A stretch of DNA of 64,000 bases. It comes from Hyphomonadaceae bacterium. GTDB lineage: Bacteria > Pseudomonadota > Alphaproteobacteria > Caulobacterales > Hyphomonadaceae. This document shows, piece after piece, positions 37,832 to 45,446 of the stretch. The stretch lies in the NCBI GenBank assembly GCA_022844345.1, contig JALHLU010000004.1, positions 186,001-250,000 of the forward strand. The letters are read 5' to 3'. The position numbers were made by a program, and so were the translations under genes. Every line of letters starts with the position of its first letter. The stretch's first letter is position 1. Under the pieces are notes generated by a model. That model had not been told where the DNA came from. It saw only the letters and a program-made list of their open reading frames with translations, and did no database searches.

Positions 37832-38128
37832 ATGGCTCAGGAAACCTCCCACACCATCCGCGAATGGGGCGACGCCACCTTCGGCGAGGCGCGCGATCTC
37901 ACCGCGCTCGTCGCCCGCGCGCGCGGCGAGATGGACGAACTCGAACAGGCTCTCCGCACAGGTGACATGTCCGAAGCGGGCAGGGAGGCTGCCGATGTCG
38001 TCATCCTGCTGCATCGCCTTGTCGGTCTTCTCGGAATGGACCTCAACGAACAGGTCGACGCCAAGATGGCGGTCAACCGCGCCCGCAAATGGAAAGCGGC
38101 GGGAGACGGGACGGGCGGCCATGTCTGA
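37832..38128 (+). CDS. MazG-like nucleotide pyrophosphohydrolase-type protein
   Basis: This is a 98-residue all-helical protein. The pattern EMDELEQAL, followed after about 15 residues by EAGREAADVVILLHRL, reproduces the E-x-x-E ... E-x-x-D metal-binding spacing of MazG and dUTPase-like NTP pyrophosphohydrolases. It is a single MazG domain and so smaller than full MazG. ATG 37832 with GAGGTG upstream is preferred; the GTG at 37823 is an alternative. Its stop overlaps the start of the GNAT gene by eight bases, so the two are probably translated together. The nucleotide substrate is unknown. Confidence 0.7.
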   Translation: MAQETSHTIREWGDATFGEARDLTALVARARGEMDELEQALRTGDMSEAGREAADVVILLHRLVGLLGMDLNEQVDAKMAVNRARKWKAAGDGTGGHV

Positions 38129-38717
38129 AGCGGAAAAGGCGCCGCGCCACATCACACTGGAGATCGCGGGCAAGCACACGTTGACGCTGCGCGCCGCGAC
38201 GCACGACGACATCCCTGTGCTCGAACGCTGGGACCGCGACCCCACCGTGATCGCGATGACCAGCGATGACCCTGACGAAACCGTCGCCTTTGGCGACGAC
38301 AATGACTGGGCCGAGAACATCGATCTCTACGAGCGCGACGTCTGGGAATACTGGATCGCGGAAATTGACGGCCGCCCCATCGGCGCCATGCAGCTGTGCG
38401 ATCCGCACAAGGAGCCGACGCACTACTGGGGCGAGATCGAACCCAACCTCCGTGCGCTCGACATCTGGATTGGCGAACCGGGCGCGCGCGGCCGCGGCTA
38501 TGGCGAGAGCATGATGCGTCTTGGCCTGGTCTGCGCGTTCGAGGACCCGGCCGTTACCGCTGTGCTGGTCGATCCGCTCGCGTCGAATCCTCGCGCTCAC
38601 AAATTCTATCAGCGCATCGGCTTCGCGCCGGCTGAACGCCGCATGTTCGGCGAGGACGACACGCTGGTACACAAGCTCACTCGCGATGACTGGGAGGCCC
38701 AGCATGAGCAGGGTTGA
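38121..38717 (+). CDS. GNAT-family N-acetyltransferase
   Basis: This is a 198-residue acetyltransferase. The acetyl-CoA-binding region has the GNAT motif A pattern in IGEPGARGRGYGESMMRLGLV (Gly-x-Gly-x-Gly type), and the motif B loop NPRAHKFYQRIGF is characteristic. The overall layout resembles AAC(6')-like enzymes, but acceptor identity cannot be deduced from sequence. It begins within the last codons of the MazG-like gene (eight-base overlap), and the two may be an operon. The frame extends upstream in the wrong context, so ATG 38121 is used. Confidence 0.87.
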   Translation: MSEAEKAPRHITLEIAGKHTLTLRAATHDDIPVLERWDRDPTVIAMTSDDPDETVAFGDDNDWAENIDLYERDVWEYWIAEIDGRPIGAMQLCDPHKEPTHYWGEIEPNLRALDIWIGEPGARGRGYGESMMRLGLVCAFEDPAVTAVLVDPLASNPRAHKFYQRIGFAPAERRMFGEDDTLVHKLTRDDWEAQHEQG

Positions 38718-38787
38718 ATGCGCGATCGCTGTCACGCGCCTGTCGGCGTGCGGCGCGAAGGTGGCTTTTCCCGAAGGAGGAAACGCC

Positions 38788-39972
38788 ATGACCCGTACTG
38801 CCCTTGCCTCAGCGTCCCTGCTGGTCCTTGCCGCCTGTAACGAGGCGCCTGCCGATACCGCTGCTTCCTGCCGCCTCGATGTGGCCACTGCCGCTGAAGC
38901 CGGGGAAGGCTGTGCGCGCGGCTGGATAGACGCAAACCTGCGCATGAACGACATCCAGACCCTCGGCACGCACAACAGTTACAAGGACTGGATCGCACCC
39001 GAAGAGTTCGCAATATTCATGGCGACCGCGCCAAAATCCGCTCCCGCGCTGGAATATGGGCACGAGCCCCTCGCGGCGCAGCTGGACTGGGGCATTCGCC
39101 AGTTTGAGATCGACATTCTGCACGACCCGCAAGGCGGCATGTTCCTCGATCCCCTGCTGCGCCGGCAGGCGATAGCCGCAGGCAAGGAGACGCCGGAGCT
39201 TGCCTTCAAGGACGCGCTCGCAAAGCCCGGCTTCAAGGTGATGCACGTTCCCGATCTCGATTATCGCACGACCTGCCCGACGCTGGTGGCGTGCCTGACC
39301 CAGATTCGTGACTGGTCCGCCGCGCATCCTGACCACACGCCGATGTTTATCATGTTGAACACCAAGGAGACGCCGGCCTCGTGGGACGGAGCCACGCCCG
39401 TGCTCGCGTTCGACGCAGCGGCCTATGACGCGCTGGACGCAGAAGTGCTCAGCGTCTTCCCGCGCGAGGCGCTGATCACGCCGGCCGACATCAAGGGTGA
39501 CAACGCCACCGTGCGCGAAGGCGTGCTCGCCAACAACTGGCCGGTGCTGGGCGAGGCGCGCGGCCGCGTGATGATCGGCATCCTCGCCAGCCGGGAATCG
39601 ACAGAACCCTATCGCAACGGGCCTGGCGGAATCGCGGCCCGGCCCATGTTCGTACGCGCGGTTTCGACCGATCCGGACGCAGCCTGGCTGATGTGGGACG
39701 ATCCCATCGCCAACCAGGAAGCCATCCGGCAGGCCGTGCGCGACGGTTTCATCGTGCGCACGCGCACCGAGCAGAACACGGTTGAGCCTCGCGCCAATAC
39801 GACGGAGAAGCGCGAGGCGGCGTTTGCGTCGAGCGGCCAGTTCGTCTCAACCGACTACTACAAGCCCAACCCGAAGTTCAGCGATTTCTCTGTCGCCTTG
39901 CCGGGCGGCGGCGTTGTGCGCTGCAACCCGCTTCGCGTGCCCACCGCCTGCGGCGAGCACACAGTCGAATGA
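38788..39972 (+). CDS. phosphoinositide-specific phospholipase C-type lipoprotein
   Basis: This is a 394-residue protein with a lipoprotein signal (lipobox LAAC near residue 16). The catalytic core has LGTHNSYKDW (first catalytic His), QLDWGIRQFEIDIL, and a second conserved His in FKVMHVPDLDYRT, with FIMLNTKET downstream; this is the Ca2+-dependent PI-PLC-C1-like TIM-barrel pattern. Such enzymes in proteobacteria are secreted or surface-bound phosphodiesterases; the natural lipid substrate is unknown. GGAGG stands seven bases before ATG 38788. It is located between serC and serA. Confidence 0.82.
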   Translation: MTRTALASASLLVLAACNEAPADTAASCRLDVATAAEAGEGCARGWIDANLRMNDIQTLGTHNSYKDWIAPEEFAIFMATAPKSAPALEYGHEPLAAQLDWGIRQFEIDILHDPQGGMFLDPLLRRQAIAAGKETPELAFKDALAKPGFKVMHVPDLDYRTTCPTLVACLTQIRDWSAAHPDHTPMFIMLNTKETPASWDGATPVLAFDAAAYDALDAEVLSVFPREALITPADIKGDNATVREGVLANNWPVLGEARGRVMIGILASRESTEPYRNGPGGIAARPMFVRAVSTDPDAAWLMWDDPIANQEAIRQAVRDGFIVRTRTEQNTVEPRANTTEKREAAFASSGQFVSTDYYKPNPKFSDFSVALPGGGVVRCNPLRVPTACGEHTVE

Positions 39973-40010: not shown

Positions 40011-41585
40011 ATGCCTAAAGTTCTCATCGCCGACGATCTTGCCCCCGGCGCCGCCGACATTTTCCGCAATCGCGGCATCGAGGTGGACTTCAAGGTCGGC
40101 CTCAAGAAGGACGAGCTGATCAGGATCATCGGCGAGTATGATGGCCTCGCCGTCCGCTCCGCCTGCAAGCCCGACAAGGACGTGATCGCCGCCGGAACCA
40201 AGCTGAAGGTCATCGGCCGCGCCGGCATCGGCGTCGACAATGTCGATGTGAAAGCCGCAACCGCCAAGGGCGTCATCGTGATGAACACGCCGTTCGGCAA
40301 CGCCATCACCACGGCCGAGCACGCCATCGCCATGATGTTCTCCGCCGCCCGCCAGATCCCGTCCGCCAGCCAGCGCACCATCGCCGGCGAATGGCCGAAA
40401 AAGGACTATATCGGCATCGAGCTCTACGCGAAGACGCTGGGCCTCATCGGCGCCGGCAATATCGGCTCCATCGTTGCGGATCGCGCGCTGGGCCTCAAGA
40501 TGAAAGTCGTCGCCTACGACCCCTTCCTCACGGCCGAACGCGCCACGCAACTCGGCGTCGAGAAAGTGGAGCTCGACGAGCTGCTCGCCCGCGCCGACGT
40601 CATCACGCTGCATACGCCGCTCACCGATCAGACGCGCAACATCCTCTCCGCCGAGAACCTCGCAAAGACGAAGAAGGGCGTGATCCTCATCAACTGCGCC
40701 CGTGGCGGTCTTGCTGACGAAGCCGCGGTTCGCGCTGGTCTTGAGAGCGGACACATCGGCGCGGCCGCTTTCGACGTGTTTCTTGAGGAACCGGCTAAAA
40801 CCAACGTGCTGTTCGGCGCCCCGAACTTTATCGCCACGCCCCACCTTGGCGCCTCGACCGTCGAAGCGCAGGACAATGTCGCCTTCCAGGTCGCCGAACA
40901 GATGGCGGACTACCTGCTGACCGGCGCTGTCTCCAACGCGCTCAACACGCCGTCAGTCACCGCCGAAGAAGCGCCGAAGCTGAAACCTTTCGTCGCGCTT
41001 GCCGAAAAGCTCGGCCAGTTCGCCGGCCAGGTCGCCGATGGCGGCCTGTCGGAAGTCGAAATCGAATACGAAGGCGCCGTAACGCAACTCAACCGCAAGC
41101 CGCTCACCTCCGCGGCGCTCGCCGGCCTGCTGCGTCCCTTCCTCGCCGAAGTAAACATGGTCTCGGCCCCCGCCATCCTGCAGGAGCGCGGTGGTTCGCT
41201 GAAGGAGTCCACGAACGACGCCAGCGCGGTCTACGACTCGCTGATCCGCGTCAAGGTGAAGGTCGAAGGCAAGTGGCGCTCGGTCGCAGGCGCTATCGTG
41301 GGCGGTCGTCCGCGTATCGTGGAAGTGAAGGGCATGCAGCTCGAAGCCGACTTCCAGCCCTTCATGCTGTTCGTCAACAACTCGGACAAGCCGGGCTTCA
41401 TCGGCGCCATGGCCGGTCTGTTGGGCGACGCCAAGGTCAACATCGCGACCTTCAACCTCGGCCGCGAAGCGAGCGGCGGCGACGCCATCGCCATTGTCGG
41501 CGTGGACCAGGATGTACCCGAAGCGACGCTGGAAGCCATCAAGGCGCTGCCGCAGGTACGCTATGTGAAGGTGCTGAAGTTCTAG
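40011..41585 (+). CDS. serA: D-3-phosphoglycerate dehydrogenase
   Basis: This is a 524-residue enzyme for the first step of serine synthesis, oxidising 3-phosphoglycerate with NAD+. The NAD-binding loop is GLIGAGNIGS near residue 145, the substrate Arg lies in NCARGGLADE, the catalytic His in ATPHLGAST, an intervening ASB-like domain follows, and a C-terminal ACT domain (VNNSDKPGFIGAMAGLLGDAKVNIATF) suggests serine feedback. AGGAG precedes the start. It is separated from serC by MazG, GNAT and PLC genes, all in the same orientation. Confidence 0.96.
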   Translation: MPKVLIADDLAPGAADIFRNRGIEVDFKVGLKKDELIRIIGEYDGLAVRSACKPDKDVIAAGTKLKVIGRAGIGVDNVDVKAATAKGVIVMNTPFGNAITTAEHAIAMMFSAARQIPSASQRTIAGEWPKKDYIGIELYAKTLGLIGAGNIGSIVADRALGLKMKVVAYDPFLTAERATQLGVEKVELDELLARADVITLHTPLTDQTRNILSAENLAKTKKGVILINCARGGLADEAAVRAGLESGHIGAAAFDVFLEEPAKTNVLFGAPNFIATPHLGASTVEAQDNVAFQVAEQMADYLLTGAVSNALNTPSVTAEEAPKLKPFVALAEKLGQFAGQVADGGLSEVEIEYEGAVTQLNRKPLTSAALAGLLRPFLAEVNMVSAPAILQERGGSLKESTNDASAVYDSLIRVKVKVEGKWRSVAGAIVGGRPRIVEVKGMQLEADFQPFMLFVNNSDKPGFIGAMAGLLGDAKVNIATFNLGREASGGDAIAIVGVDQDVPEATLEAIKALPQVRYVKVLKF

Positions 41586-41635: not shown

Positions 41636-42358
41636 ATGAACCGCCGCGCTTTCATTGCCGCACTTGGAGCGTCCGCCGCAGCCCCCGCGCTCGCGCAGAC
41701 AGCGCCAGCTGCGCCTGCGCCGCTGTTCTACTATGCGGGACAGGCCGGCCGCCTCACCAGCGATCGCGACAGGCAGGGCGGCAACCCGTTCGCCTCGGCG
41801 TTGTGCGAGGTGTTGCCCGAGCTGCCGCTGACGCTTGAAGCCTTCGGCGGCCGGATGGCGCTGGCCAATTCGCTGCATAGCCGCGGCTGGCAGAACATCC
41901 AGATGCCGCGCAAGCTACCTGATCCCAAATTGAAACTGGGCCGGGCAGACCAAAGCCGCCGCGCGCTGGTGCTGATCAATGCCGACTATTCGAAGTCGGA
42001 CGCCTATTCGCTGCCGGGCGCGCGGTTCGATGCGCGGCGCGTACCCGATGCGTTGCAGGCGGCGGGCTTCGAGACAACGCTGGCGCTCGACGCTGGCGTT
42101 GAAGGCGCGCGCGCGGCGATGGCGGCGTTTGCTGCGCAATCGGCTGATGCCGATGTCTCACTGGTCTATGTTGGCGGCCATGGTCTGCAGCGCAAGCGCA
42201 CTGTCTACTGGATGATGGGCGATTATCCCGGGCGCGACTCGAAATGGCTGGCGACTCACGCCATCTCGCTGGACGAGATCGGAACAGCGGGCAGGGCGCG
42301 GCAGGCGAACCTGGTGCTCTATGCGTCCTGCCGCGATGATCCCTTCCTGGGAAAGTGA
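41636..42358 (+). CDS. exported caspase-like (peptidase C14) protein with apparently permuted segments
   Basis: This is a 240-residue protein with a twin-arginine-like signal (MNRRAFIAALGASAAAPALA). Residues 105-185 look like the first half of a caspase-type p20 domain: ALVLINADY, LPGARFDARRVPDALQAAGFE, VSLVYVGGHG (His182). The last residues, VLYASCRDDPFLGK, hold the expected Cys232, and then the protein stops. The N-terminal part, FYYAGQAGRLTSDRDRQGGNPFASALCEVL (about residues 31-60), resembles the segment that normally follows the catalytic Cys in such enzymes (APGQ...GRNSPF..AL). The order is thus reversed compared with usual caspases. It could be a real permutation or only a pattern coincidence. 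Confidence 0.7.
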   Translation: MNRRAFIAALGASAAAPALAQTAPAAPAPLFYYAGQAGRLTSDRDRQGGNPFASALCEVLPELPLTLEAFGGRMALANSLHSRGWQNIQMPRKLPDPKLKLGRADQSRRALVLINADYSKSDAYSLPGARFDARRVPDALQAAGFETTLALDAGVEGARAAMAAFAAQSADADVSLVYVGGHGLQRKRTVYWMMGDYPGRDSKWLATHAISLDEIGTAGRARQANLVLYASCRDDPFLGK

Positions 42359-42364
42359 AGAACG

Positions 42365-42718
42365 ATGGACGCCGACAGCGCACAGCAATTCGCCCGCGAA
42401 TGGGTGAAGGCGTGGAATGACCATGACCTGGCTGCCATCCTCGCCCACTACGCCGAGGACGTCGTCTTCCATTCGCCCCGCATTCGCATGGTGACGGGCC
42501 GCGACATTGATTTCGTAACCGGCAAGGACGCCCTGCGCAGCTATTGGGCCGCCGCGCTGGAGCGGGCCCGCGATCTCTATTTCGAGGTCGATCACGTGCT
42601 GGCCGGTTCGGGCGCGCTCACCATCGTCTACACCAACCATCGCCAGCAGACGGTCGCCGAGACATTCGTGTTCAACGCCGCCGGCAAGGTTGAGCGTTCA
42701 ATCGCGGCGTATGGCTGA
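42365..42718 (+). CDS. NTF2/SnoaL-like protein
   Basis: This is a 117-residue small cytoplasmic protein with the NTF2-like cone-fold pattern: a helical N-terminus FAREWVKAWNDHDLAAILAHYAEDVVFHSP, then DFVTGKDALRSYW, DLYFEVDHVLAGSGALTIVYTNHRQQTVAETFVFNAAGKV. Such proteins are enzymes or binding proteins of varied function. It begins six bases after the caspase-like gene stop and is probably co-transcribed, although the two products are likely in different compartments. Substrate unknown. Confidence 0.8.
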   Translation: MDADSAQQFAREWVKAWNDHDLAAILAHYAEDVVFHSPRIRMVTGRDIDFVTGKDALRSYWAAALERARDLYFEVDHVLAGSGALTIVYTNHRQQTVAETFVFNAAGKVERSIAAYG

Positions 42719-42725
42719 GCGGTCT

Positions 42726-43451
42726 TCAGCGCGCGCGCTTTGGCGGCCGGCGGCGCGCGGCGGCTGCCACCTTCAACCTGACAACGGCCTTGGGCGGCGC
42801 CTTCTTCGGCTTGGCCTTCTTTGCAGAGCCAGGCTTTGCGGTCACGGTTCTCGCCGCCTTTGCCTTCGCCACGGGCCAGCGGCCGGTCTCTTCCTCCCAG
42901 TGGCGGCGGCATAGCGAGACGTACATCGACTTCTCGATGCCGACCTGCTCGCCGCTGGTCACGGCGCGGCCATCGGGGCTGTGGCGCACCACCATCGTCG
43001 CCTTGTGGCCGCAGTGGCAGATGGTGCGAATCTCGCGCAGGTTGTCCGCGATGGCGAGGAGTTCTGACGATCCCTCGAACAGCTGGCCGCGAAAGTCCGT
43101 GCGCAGGCCAAAGCACATCACTGGAATATCCAGCCGGTCGGCCACGCGCGCCAGCTGCCACACCTGTTCGCGGCTGAGGAACTGCGCCTCGTCGACGAAT
43201 ACGCAGTCGAGCCGCTTGCGCTTGTGCTCCTTCGCAATCCACGCATAGAGGTCGTCCGCCGCCGAATAGAGGTGTGCGTCCGCATGGATGCCGATGCGCG
43301 AGCTGATGCGGCCCGCATCCGCCTTGGCATAGAGGGCGGAGGTGAACAGCATCGTCCGCATGCCGCGTTCATTGTAGTTCCACGACGCCTGCAGCAGCAG
43401 GGTCGACTTGCCCGCATTCATCGCGGCGTAGGAGAAATACAGCTTGGACAT
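42726..43451 (-). CDS. tdk: thymidine kinase with basic Ala/Lys/Pro tail
   Basis: This is a 241-residue type II thymidine kinase, which phosphorylates thymidine in the salvage pathway. The Walker A motif is in FSYAAMNAGKSTLLLQ, the DEAQFLS motif holds the catalytic Glu, and two zinc Cys pairs (TICHCGHKA and SLCRRHW) are recognisable. After about residue 190 a tail of roughly 45 residues is rich in Ala, Lys, Pro and Arg (AKAARTVTAKPGSAKKAKPKK... ending PPKRAR), absent from ordinary bacterial Tdk (about 190-200 residues). The start ATG 43451 fits the family; the upstream frame is spurious. Confidence 0.92.
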   Translation of the reverse strand: MSKLYFSYAAMNAGKSTLLLQASWNYNERGMRTMLFTSALYAKADAGRISSRIGIHADAHLYSAADDLYAWIAKEHKRKRLDCVFVDEAQFLSREQVWQLARVADRLDIPVMCFGLRTDFRGQLFEGSSELLAIADNLREIRTICHCGHKATMVVRHSPDGRAVTSGEQVGIEKSMYVSLCRRHWEEETGRWPVAKAKAARTVTAKPGSAKKAKPKKAPPKAVVRLKVAAAARRRPPKRAR

Positions 43452-43621
43452 GGCAGGCGCTTTTTGCATCGCCGGCAGGCCCAAGGCCAGCCCCGACTGT
43501 GCGAAACACGGGGGAAACCTGCGGGCGTCACGTTTGCGGCCCTGCGGCTCACCCGCCATGCTGACAACATGCGCGGCGCTGGTGGTCCTGACGACACGCT
43601 GCCAGTCAGCAGCCGGGCGTC

Positions 43622-43918
43622 TTACGCCCCCGCCATCAGTGTCGTCCGCACCCTGTCGCGATAGCGGATGCACTGGGCGATATAGCGGCGGTACATCTCG
43701 ACATCCACTTCCTCGCTCTCGGTGCAGGGCAGCAGCATGTCGCCATCCGACTTGAAGTTGCCGTCCCATGCCATGAGCGCCTCATCGCTCATGGTCGGGT
43801 CGAACGTCTTCAGCTTCGCATCCGGCATACCGTCGAAATAGGCGCAGAGATTTATGCCCGCTTCCGTGCGCGGCTCGAACGGCGGCTCGCTCTCGAAGTT
43901 CCAGGTGGGTTCGGTCAT
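43622..43918 (-). CDS. hypothetical protein, unrecognised family
   Basis: This is a 98-residue hydrophilic protein beginning MTEPTWNFESEPP. It has no signal peptide or membrane span, two cysteines (INLCAYFDG and LLPCTESEE), and an acidic middle followed by a helical basic end (YRRYIAQCIRYRDRVRTTL). Its start lies four bases downstream of the amidohydrolase stop at 43923, so it probably shares that transcript. The ATG at 43945 would overlap the amidohydrolase; I use ATG 43918. Function unknown. Confidence 0.65.
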   Translation of the reverse strand: MTEPTWNFESEPPFEPRTEAGINLCAYFDGMPDAKLKTFDPTMSDEALMAWDGNFKSDGDMLLPCTESEEVDVEMYRRYIAQCIRYRDRVRTTLMAGA

Positions 43919-43922
43919 GGGC

Positions 43923-45446
43923 TTACCCTTGCTGGACCCAGCCATGATAGTCGTTGTCGCGCAGGCCGCCGCGCTCGAGATAGGCCTGCTTCACGCGCGT
44001 GAGCGCGTCGGCCGGCAGAGCATTGCGCTGGGCGTTCACGTCGATGCCATACAGCTTTGCGGCGTTGAGCCCGAAAATCCTGGCGCGGTCCTCGTCGGTG
44101 ATCTTCTTGTAACCGTGCTTCTCGCATAGCTCGTCAGAGATCTGGAAACGCTTGAACGCGTCGATGCCCCACTGCGGCGATCCCCACCACAGGCAGTCCG
44201 TTCCCCACACGACGTGGTCCGCGCCATAGGTTTTGATGTTGAGGCCCATGCCATGCATGCACATGACCGGGTCCTGGATCGCCAGCGTGTTGAAGAAGGA
44301 GCCGACCTCCGGATAGACGTTGTTGATCTGCGGATTGTTCCGTTTGATGTCCATCAGGATCTTGTGCCACAGGAAGTCGCCCGTCTCCGGGTTGTATTCG
44401 TTCATCGCCTTCCAGTCCGCGCCATCTGTCGCGCCGTGTTTCAGCGCCGAGTGATAGACGACGAAATTGAAATCCGGATTGCGTAGCGCCGCCTTCTCGA
44501 TGTCCTTCGGATTGGCAAGGTGGCCCAGCGTGCGTGACTGGTAGGAATATCCCTTGTGCACTGAGATCAGCTTCATCCCGCGCTTGCGCGATTCATCCAT
44601 GAACCACTGCGCGTTGTCGTCATCGAGCTGGAAGCCATTGCCCGTGCGCGCTGGGTCGGTATGGCAATACCACTTCCACGAGTTGATCTTGTACTGGTTC
44701 AGCTCGCGTTCCATCTGTTCGATCGTCGCGGCCTTGTCGATCGAATTGGTCGTCGTGTTCCAGTAATGGTTGGGCGCGAGGTTGCCCTGGCACATGGCGC
44801 GCTGCGAGCCCGCCATCGCGTTCAGCTCATTGCGTGACTGCGCCATCAGCCAGCTCGGCAGGATCGCGCCGCGCGGCGTGCGCTCCGCGCCTTCCAGCAC
44901 GCGGCCGTCGGCGCCACGCTGCTCCTCTTTCCCGGGCACGCCGGAGATGACGACCATCGCGGTTTCCGAATCGAGGAACATCTCCTTAGTGAAGGTGCGG
45001 AAGGAGTATGACTCCACATCGTCCTTCAGGCTGAAGCCCATGTTCCGCGCCGTCTCCGAATTGCGGAAGTTCAGCGCGATGCCGTTGGAGTAGTGCGCCT
45101 GCACGTCGATGATGAAGAACTTGCCCTTCTGGCCGTTGGCCTTCACCACTTCGGTTTCGCGCGGCTCGAACGCTTCGTCCTCGCCAACCTCGAAGGCGTC
45201 CTGGCCGTAGACGCAGTTGGAGGCAAGAAAGGCTGTCGCAAGGCCCATGGACGAAGCCATGTAGGCCCGCCGGTTCATGTTGAGCTTCTTCGCGTTGGCC
45301 GTGCCCCATTCCATGATGAGGTCTTCGACCTGCTTCTGCTTCTTCGTCTGCGGGCGGGGGATGAACTCCTCGTTGGAGACAACCTGTGTCGGGATGGGCG
45401 AGTCGACGCCCAGCATACGGTCACGCTCGCCCTTGCGAATCCACAT
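43923..45446 (-). CDS. amidohydrolase-2 family metal-dependent hydrolase with Tat-like segment
   Basis: This is a 507-residue TIM-barrel hydrolase. The metal-site landmarks are [13 protein letters not shown] (HxH-like region), [10 protein letters not shown], a His in [20 protein letters not shown] with an Asp, and the C-terminal [12 protein letters not shown], typical of the amidohydrolase_2 family (decarboxylases and lactonases). Residues 57-77 ([21 protein letters not shown]) form a twin-arginine-like signal that is preceded by 56 hydrophilic residues. Either the true start is the internal Met57, or this family keeps an N-terminal extension. The gene begins at ATG 45446. Substrate unknown. 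Confidence 0.83.

Follow-up and report, generated by a model that had tools for sequence, protein, structure and literature searches.

A conserved bacterial caspase-like protein with p10 before p20, predicted to be an exported, circularly permuted C14 protease

Choi and Berges are said to have dealt in 2013 with the type III metacaspases of algae. In these algal proteins the order is naturally reversed, with p10 standing before p20 (PMC6426788, PMC5756287), and the activity of GtMC2 follows calcium-dependent removal of an N-terminal domain, according to the accessible part of that report (PMC5756287). A 2019 survey of archaea and bacteria detected type III (p10-before-p20) proteins in neither, as the accessible part of its text states (PMC6426788). 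Effector caspases become active only once the loop joining strand 4 to strand 5 has been cut, and in MALT1 the pocket for a P1 arginine owes its shape to Asp365, Asp462 and Glu500, both according to excerpts of one article (PMC4357240). In the cpCasp2 design, as an excerpt of its description has it, the subunits trade places, so that the chain folds into its active form and the cut is dispensed with (PMC7760212). Here we describe a bacterial gene whose product is almost certainly a naturally circularly permuted C14 fold.

The gene occupies positions 41636–42358 (plus strand, as for its parts and its two immediate neighbours below) of the window, the whole 64,000-nucleotide stretch of DNA analysed, and its open reading frame encodes 240 amino acids. 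A signal-like N-terminus (residues 1–21; 41636–41698), recognised in the sequence by an RR pair, a hydrophobic run and ALA-Q, with the cleavage site placed by eye, is followed by a p10-like segment (residues 28–102; 41717–41941) delimited from profiles and the AlphaFold model. The p20-like catalytic segment comes next (residues 104–237; 41945–42346; PF00656 positions 2–128 and the AlphaFold model), whereas in ordinary caspases the p10 equivalent sits after the catalytic Cys. PF00656 matched residues 108–233 with model positions 2–128 of 233 (E 8.2e-12), the score of 45.7 bits lying above the gathering score of 21.4, and the protein is the sole PF00656 match at E ≤ 0.001 in its own genome. Among NCBIfam models just one caspase model matched it, below threshold (27.7 bits, the cut-off being 140). 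The predicted catalytic residues are His182 in GGHG (42179–42181) and Cys232 in SCRDDPF (42329–42331), a motif after which three more residues complete the chain. The initial annotation, made from the letters alone, had given the same coordinates and frame, the His182 in VGGHG and the Cys232 in YASCRDDPF with eight residues to the stop, and the sequence agrees with it throughout; the p10 resemblance that it had seen at residues 31–60 is real, but the stretch is longer and reaches to about residue 100.

Both immediate neighbours, assigned by domain matches and from relative loci, are conserved. A serA-like phosphoglycerate dehydrogenase gene (40011–41585) lies upstream, and a SnoaL/NTF2-like gene (42365–42718) starts downstream, 6 bases past the stop codon as annotated initially. 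At the 14 contig loci compared, the serA match was found upstream in 12 and the SnoaL gene immediately downstream in 12, with one more carrying it about 950 bases away; one locus (L043) has neither neighbour, and at another (L039) the contig end is too near to show serA. Farther out, the window encodes a GNAT acetyltransferase (37962–38717; PF13523), a match to which lies upstream of serA in 10/14 relative loci, and a Ca2+-dependent phosphoinositide phospholipase C-like gene (38521–39972; PF16670, E 4e-107) whose true start is probably inside the open reading frame. On the minus strand lie a thymidine kinase gene (42726–43769; PF00265) and an amidohydrolase gene (43923–45446; PF04909) with an RR-containing N-terminal region.

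A full-length homologue was present in 14 of the 61 genomes searched, the window's own counted, and the other 13 proteins are 48–88% identical to the window protein. A scan of public genome contigs with two peptide patterns, the reach of which is limited to close relatives, gave 14 loci, including one new member (L045) beyond the 61-genome search. The most divergent member, L095, was found when 299 genomes of the order were searched; it belongs to another taxonomic family and shares 33% identity with the window protein. In total the analysis covers 16 distinct members, the window protein included, with 33–88% identity to it and from two or more families within a single order. His182, Cys232, Arg233, Pro236 and Phe237 are invariant in the alignment of all 16, Gly181 and Gly183 are kept in all 16, and the chains end 1–4 residues past Phe237. 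Every member matched PF00656 at E ≤ 1, and 2/16 matched CHAT too. Among 10 comparisons, 6 were computable and gave dN/dS values of 0.03–0.16; for p10 the values were 0.029 and 0.060 (two comparisons) and for p20 0.080–0.157 (four comparisons).

Outside the order, permuted C14 proteins were recognised neither among the matches listed for 385 genomes of the class (E ≤ 1e-10) nor among those listed for 398 genomes of the phylum (E ≤ 1e-15); the two sets overlap and at most seven candidates per genome were scored, so neither demonstrates absence. In the search within the order, one match (L100, query positions 22–236) proved on inspection to be an ordinary p20-p10 protein. In one pattern scan of viral contigs 8 stretches matched, none of which encodes a relative, and PADLOC anti-phage defence models gave no family at E ≤ 1 for either of the two proteins scanned (the window protein and L095). 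A 240-aa open reading frame at L123 (G611) encodes a C14 protein whose p20 lies close to the start and in which no p10 was detected; it may be a truncated or p20-only orthocaspase.

The p10 segment precedes p20 in 16/16 members. In 92 other C14 proteins, a non-random set chosen as those that matched the family profile best, p10 follows p20 in 90 and precedes it in none, two being without a p10 match; this count took distinct open reading frames whose p20 match had E < 1e-10 and extended to model position 130, and degenerate tandem proteins were excluded. Because 14 of the 16 members, together with 24 ordinary tails, had served to train the profiles behind this count, the weight falls on independent tests. 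First, a p10 profile was built from ordinary proteins only (36 C14 tails, 34 of them distinct, thinned to 24), and 11/14 family proteins outscored the best of 14,000 shuffles (10.9 bits), the other three being L014 (10.4 bits), L015 (9.0 bits) and L012 (0.2 bits). Reversed sequences reached at best 1.8 bits with this profile, far less than the 11. Second, a profile–profile alignment (hhalign) of the N-terminal part of the family with ordinary p10 gave P 2.3e-8 and a probability of 95.3 over 68 columns. Third, the p10 half of L095 alone matched ordinary C14 proteins at the p10 position (best E 1.2e-5). Against PDB sequences, the family profile aligned caspase-4 as two pieces in swapped order, the second of them weak (6.7 bits, i-Evalue 46) and not significant alone, and it matched the p10 end of CED-3 with a whole-sequence E of 0.002, no single stretch of which passes.

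AlphaFold models of the window protein (pLDDT 86.7, pTM 0.84) and of L095 (pLDDT 84.1, pTM 0.83) have their main elements in the same order. In the window model the p10 part comprises a strand (30–35), two helices (51–62 and 67–82) and a further strand (87–89), after which the p20 strands follow; pLDDT is under 50 at residues 1–6 and 8–17. In a Foldseek search of the PDB, the top four matches of each model were all chains of JF1cpCasp2, a caspase-2 that was circularly permuted by design, with alignments of 242–260 columns (242–257 columns for the window model, E 3.7e-8 to 4.7e-7), with TM-scores of 0.64–0.66, rmsd values of 4.4–6.0 and 12–14% identity. Ranks 5–50 covered 126–145 columns for the window model and 125–158 for L095. 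As many of these other ordinary-caspase rows are lone p20 chains that are unable to align further, the ordinary-order control is carried by MALT1, whose single chain contains both parts and which aligned over 126–140 columns (window) and 125–138 (L095). The initial annotation had called for a permutation-aware structural alignment and for a look at the order in close homologues. Foldseek, with the permuted cpCasp2 as positive control, stood in for the former, and both models match the caspase fold of peptidase C14, as predicted models; the latter gave the reversed order throughout. Neither of the outcomes that the annotation had named as refuting, a model lacking the C14 fold or the normal order in close homologues, was thus observed. 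The sequence profiles, the two models and the order in all members thus bear out the permuted p10-p20 architecture. Our preferred reading, which we hold as a whole to be quite probable, is that of a natural permuted C14 cysteine protease of single origin, exported, needing no internal cut and acting by hydrolysis at His182/Cys232.

A quick tree was computed from 105 p20 segments (137 columns), all bacterial, to which 141 domain rows had been thinned and which included 14 of the 16 permuted ones. These 14 clustered together (SH-aLRT 96), with ordinary C14 proteins around them. The neighbours of the clade, both weak, were L028, the long-branched first domain of a tandem protein (support 86), and then L096 (support 80), a single-domain protein from another family of the window's order. 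As part of the preferred reading, and with the same likelihood, we place a single permutation event in an alphaproteobacterial order that is also rich in ordinary C14 proteins. Tandem C14 proteins with two p20-like domains were seen at 18 loci of the window's taxonomic family (L030, L031, L075–L079, L081, L083–L089, L091, L093 and L028), in regions picked partly for tandem content; inspected by eye, those at L030 and L031 have an RR signal-like start, and their second domain seems to be without the catalytic His and Cys.

An alternative that concerns the origin only, and is compatible with the preferred reading, is that a tandem p20-p10-p20-p10 gene lost its outer halves and left p10-p20. In five tandem proteins the match to the permuted profile is continuous from the p10 of domain 1 to the p20 of domain 2 (query ranges 33–200, 33–218, 38–217, 33–218 and 34–226), which shows a way in which excision from a tandem gene could yield a permuted one. 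A quick tree in which the permuted clade and the tandem second domains were constrained together was not rejected (p-AU 0.396), although it was not the best tree; for this test 17 rows that were long, odd or near-duplicate had been dropped, which left 88. The free tree, in contrast, sets the permuted clade among ordinary C14 proteins and far from nearly all tandem second domains, its basis being 137 columns only, and since the second domain of L030 and L031 seems dead by eye, the living tandem genes would be cousins at most. A tandem origin is thus neither shown nor rejected, and we offer it tentatively.

In the computed arrangement the p10 half comes first, a short linker leads into the first p20 strand and little follows the catalytic Cys before the chain stops, which puts the new termini within loop L4, the very loop whose cleavage activates effector caspases. 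Because the termini lie at the strand 4–5 loop as in cpCasp2, internal processing should not be needed. On the preferred reading, the protein would be exported to the periplasm, its single chain would fold into the sheet of a processed caspase with no cut between the halves, and the His182/Cys232 dyad would hydrolyse peptides. The gene product is likely to be, by prediction, a periplasmic cysteine protease made in an 'already cleaved' state. Export of the window protein is likely, judging by the signal-like N-termini. The initial annotation had named a twin-arginine signal; the RR-containing signal-like start is there, but Pfam TAT_signal matched 3/16 members at E ≤ 1 (best 0.0035), and export may be by either Tat or Sec. 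A further reading, which we consider unlikely, is that a bacterial lineage arrived at a 'pre-cleaved' caspase on its own, with no link to the algal or the engineered cases, and tied the maturation of the enzyme to its export. In that event the place of the ordinary activation linker would be taken by the signal peptide, so that signal peptidase would make the maturation cut, and the enzyme would be locked in the cytoplasm as long as the signal peptide is on and become active only once exported.

The S1 residues were equated with those of MALT1 by hand, with alignments and the spacing of motifs as the guide. By alignment, with hand-counted MALT1 numbering, Asp132 (42029–42031; 16/16 members) corresponds to MALT1 Asp365, and Asp43 (41762–41764; D in 15/16) was hand-aligned with Glu500. 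The residue at Cys-2 is A, G or S in 16/16 members; in ordinary C14 domains it is D in all 68 that have the CR[ND] motif, of 71 examined, three being without the motif. The three acidic S1 residues of an Arg/Lys-specific C14B (MALT1-like) pocket are hence not all in place: two are kept and the acid at Cys-2 is replaced, which makes for a P1 pocket that is partly acidic but changed. As predicted from these residues, the P1 preference is probably basic still, but relaxed or shifted, and the loss of the Cys-2 Asp in the permuted clade could mean weak or altered activity. The same replacement, complete in the family, speaks for a permuted pseudo-protease in which the caspase fold was kept to bind a periplasmic ligand and the pocket function was lost. 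Set against this are His182, Cys232, Gly181, Gly183, Arg233 and Asp132, each in 16/16 members, and Asp43 in 15/16; conservation of such catalytic and pocket residues is unusual without catalysis. We regard a pseudo-protease as improbable and predict, with good confidence, that the window protein is proteolytically active.

Pfam detects the p20 half only and L012 reaches just 0.2 bits with the ordinary p10 profile, as would suit a p20 fragment joined to an unrelated N-terminal domain with a chance likeness to p10; this is largely refuted, and very improbable, given the hhalign P of 2.3e-8, the shuffle comparison, the match of the L095 p10 to ordinary C14 proteins at the right place and the agreement of two models with cpCasp2 over their full length. 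An assembly or frameshift artefact, or a decayed remnant of a tandem caspase gene, might be suspected from the metagenome-assembled state of all 14 pattern-scan contig records and from the tandem C14 genes of the same taxonomic family (18 loci, regions partly picked for them), but is refuted by an order kept in 16/16 members from different assemblies, with L041 on a 3.4-Mb contig, by conserved neighbour genes and by purifying selection in the computable comparisons.

What appears to be new is the reversed order in bacteria, not the reversed order itself. The architecture, initially annotated as novel, is apparently new for bacteria, but p10 before p20 was already known from algal type III metacaspases (PMC6426788, PMC5756287), and in the open-access literature the titles and abstract starts among the matches listed held no bacterial permuted case. 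The clade described here is thus a conserved bacterial one of a type that the 2019 survey, in the accessible part of its text, reported absent (PMC6426788). The 30-bit p10 cut-off given there exceeds every family score on our ordinary p10 profile (maximum 22.0 bits), the two profiles being different ones, and our guess is that the survey could have overlooked such proteins through its cut-off. A search that relies on p20 by itself, or that accepts p10 only behind p20, will miss their two-part nature. As a natural counterpart to cpCasp2, the family makes it possible to ask whether permutation served evolution as a way out of zymogen control, and, as the protein is small and its S1 pocket altered, it may be useful as a scaffold for tag removal.

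Compared with known systems, the family shares with type III metacaspases a p10 that ends before p20 starts, the definition in the accessible part of the survey (PMC6426788), applied here with profiles other than its own p10 model and 30-bit cut-off. It also has an Asp near the p10 N-terminus, Asp43 in 15/16 members, matched by hand to the calcium-binding Asp described there. This likeness is one of domain order and description, the tree having compared bacterial rows only, and type III metacaspases are eukaryotic, whereas the window clade is bacterial and probably exported, its protein is of 240 aa and its Cys-2 Asp is lost. Ordinary-order C14 proteins, such as metacaspases of types I and II, carry p20 before p10, the reverse of what all 16 members do. 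The ordinary bacterial C14 proteins of the same order (orthocaspase/type I-like) share PF00656, the His/Cys dyad and the kind of p10 with the window protein, and are unlike it in their p20-p10 order and the Asp at Cys-2. MALT1 is among the best ordinary-order matches by both profile and fold, with two of the three S1 acids matched, but it has the ordinary order, and an equivalent of its Asp462 is absent from the window protein. The best structural match is JF1cpCasp2 (PDB 8vp4/9c2y), which shares with the window protein a small subunit placed before the large one and termini between them, and which, at 12–14% identity to the bacterial models, is man-made from a human Asp-specific enzyme.
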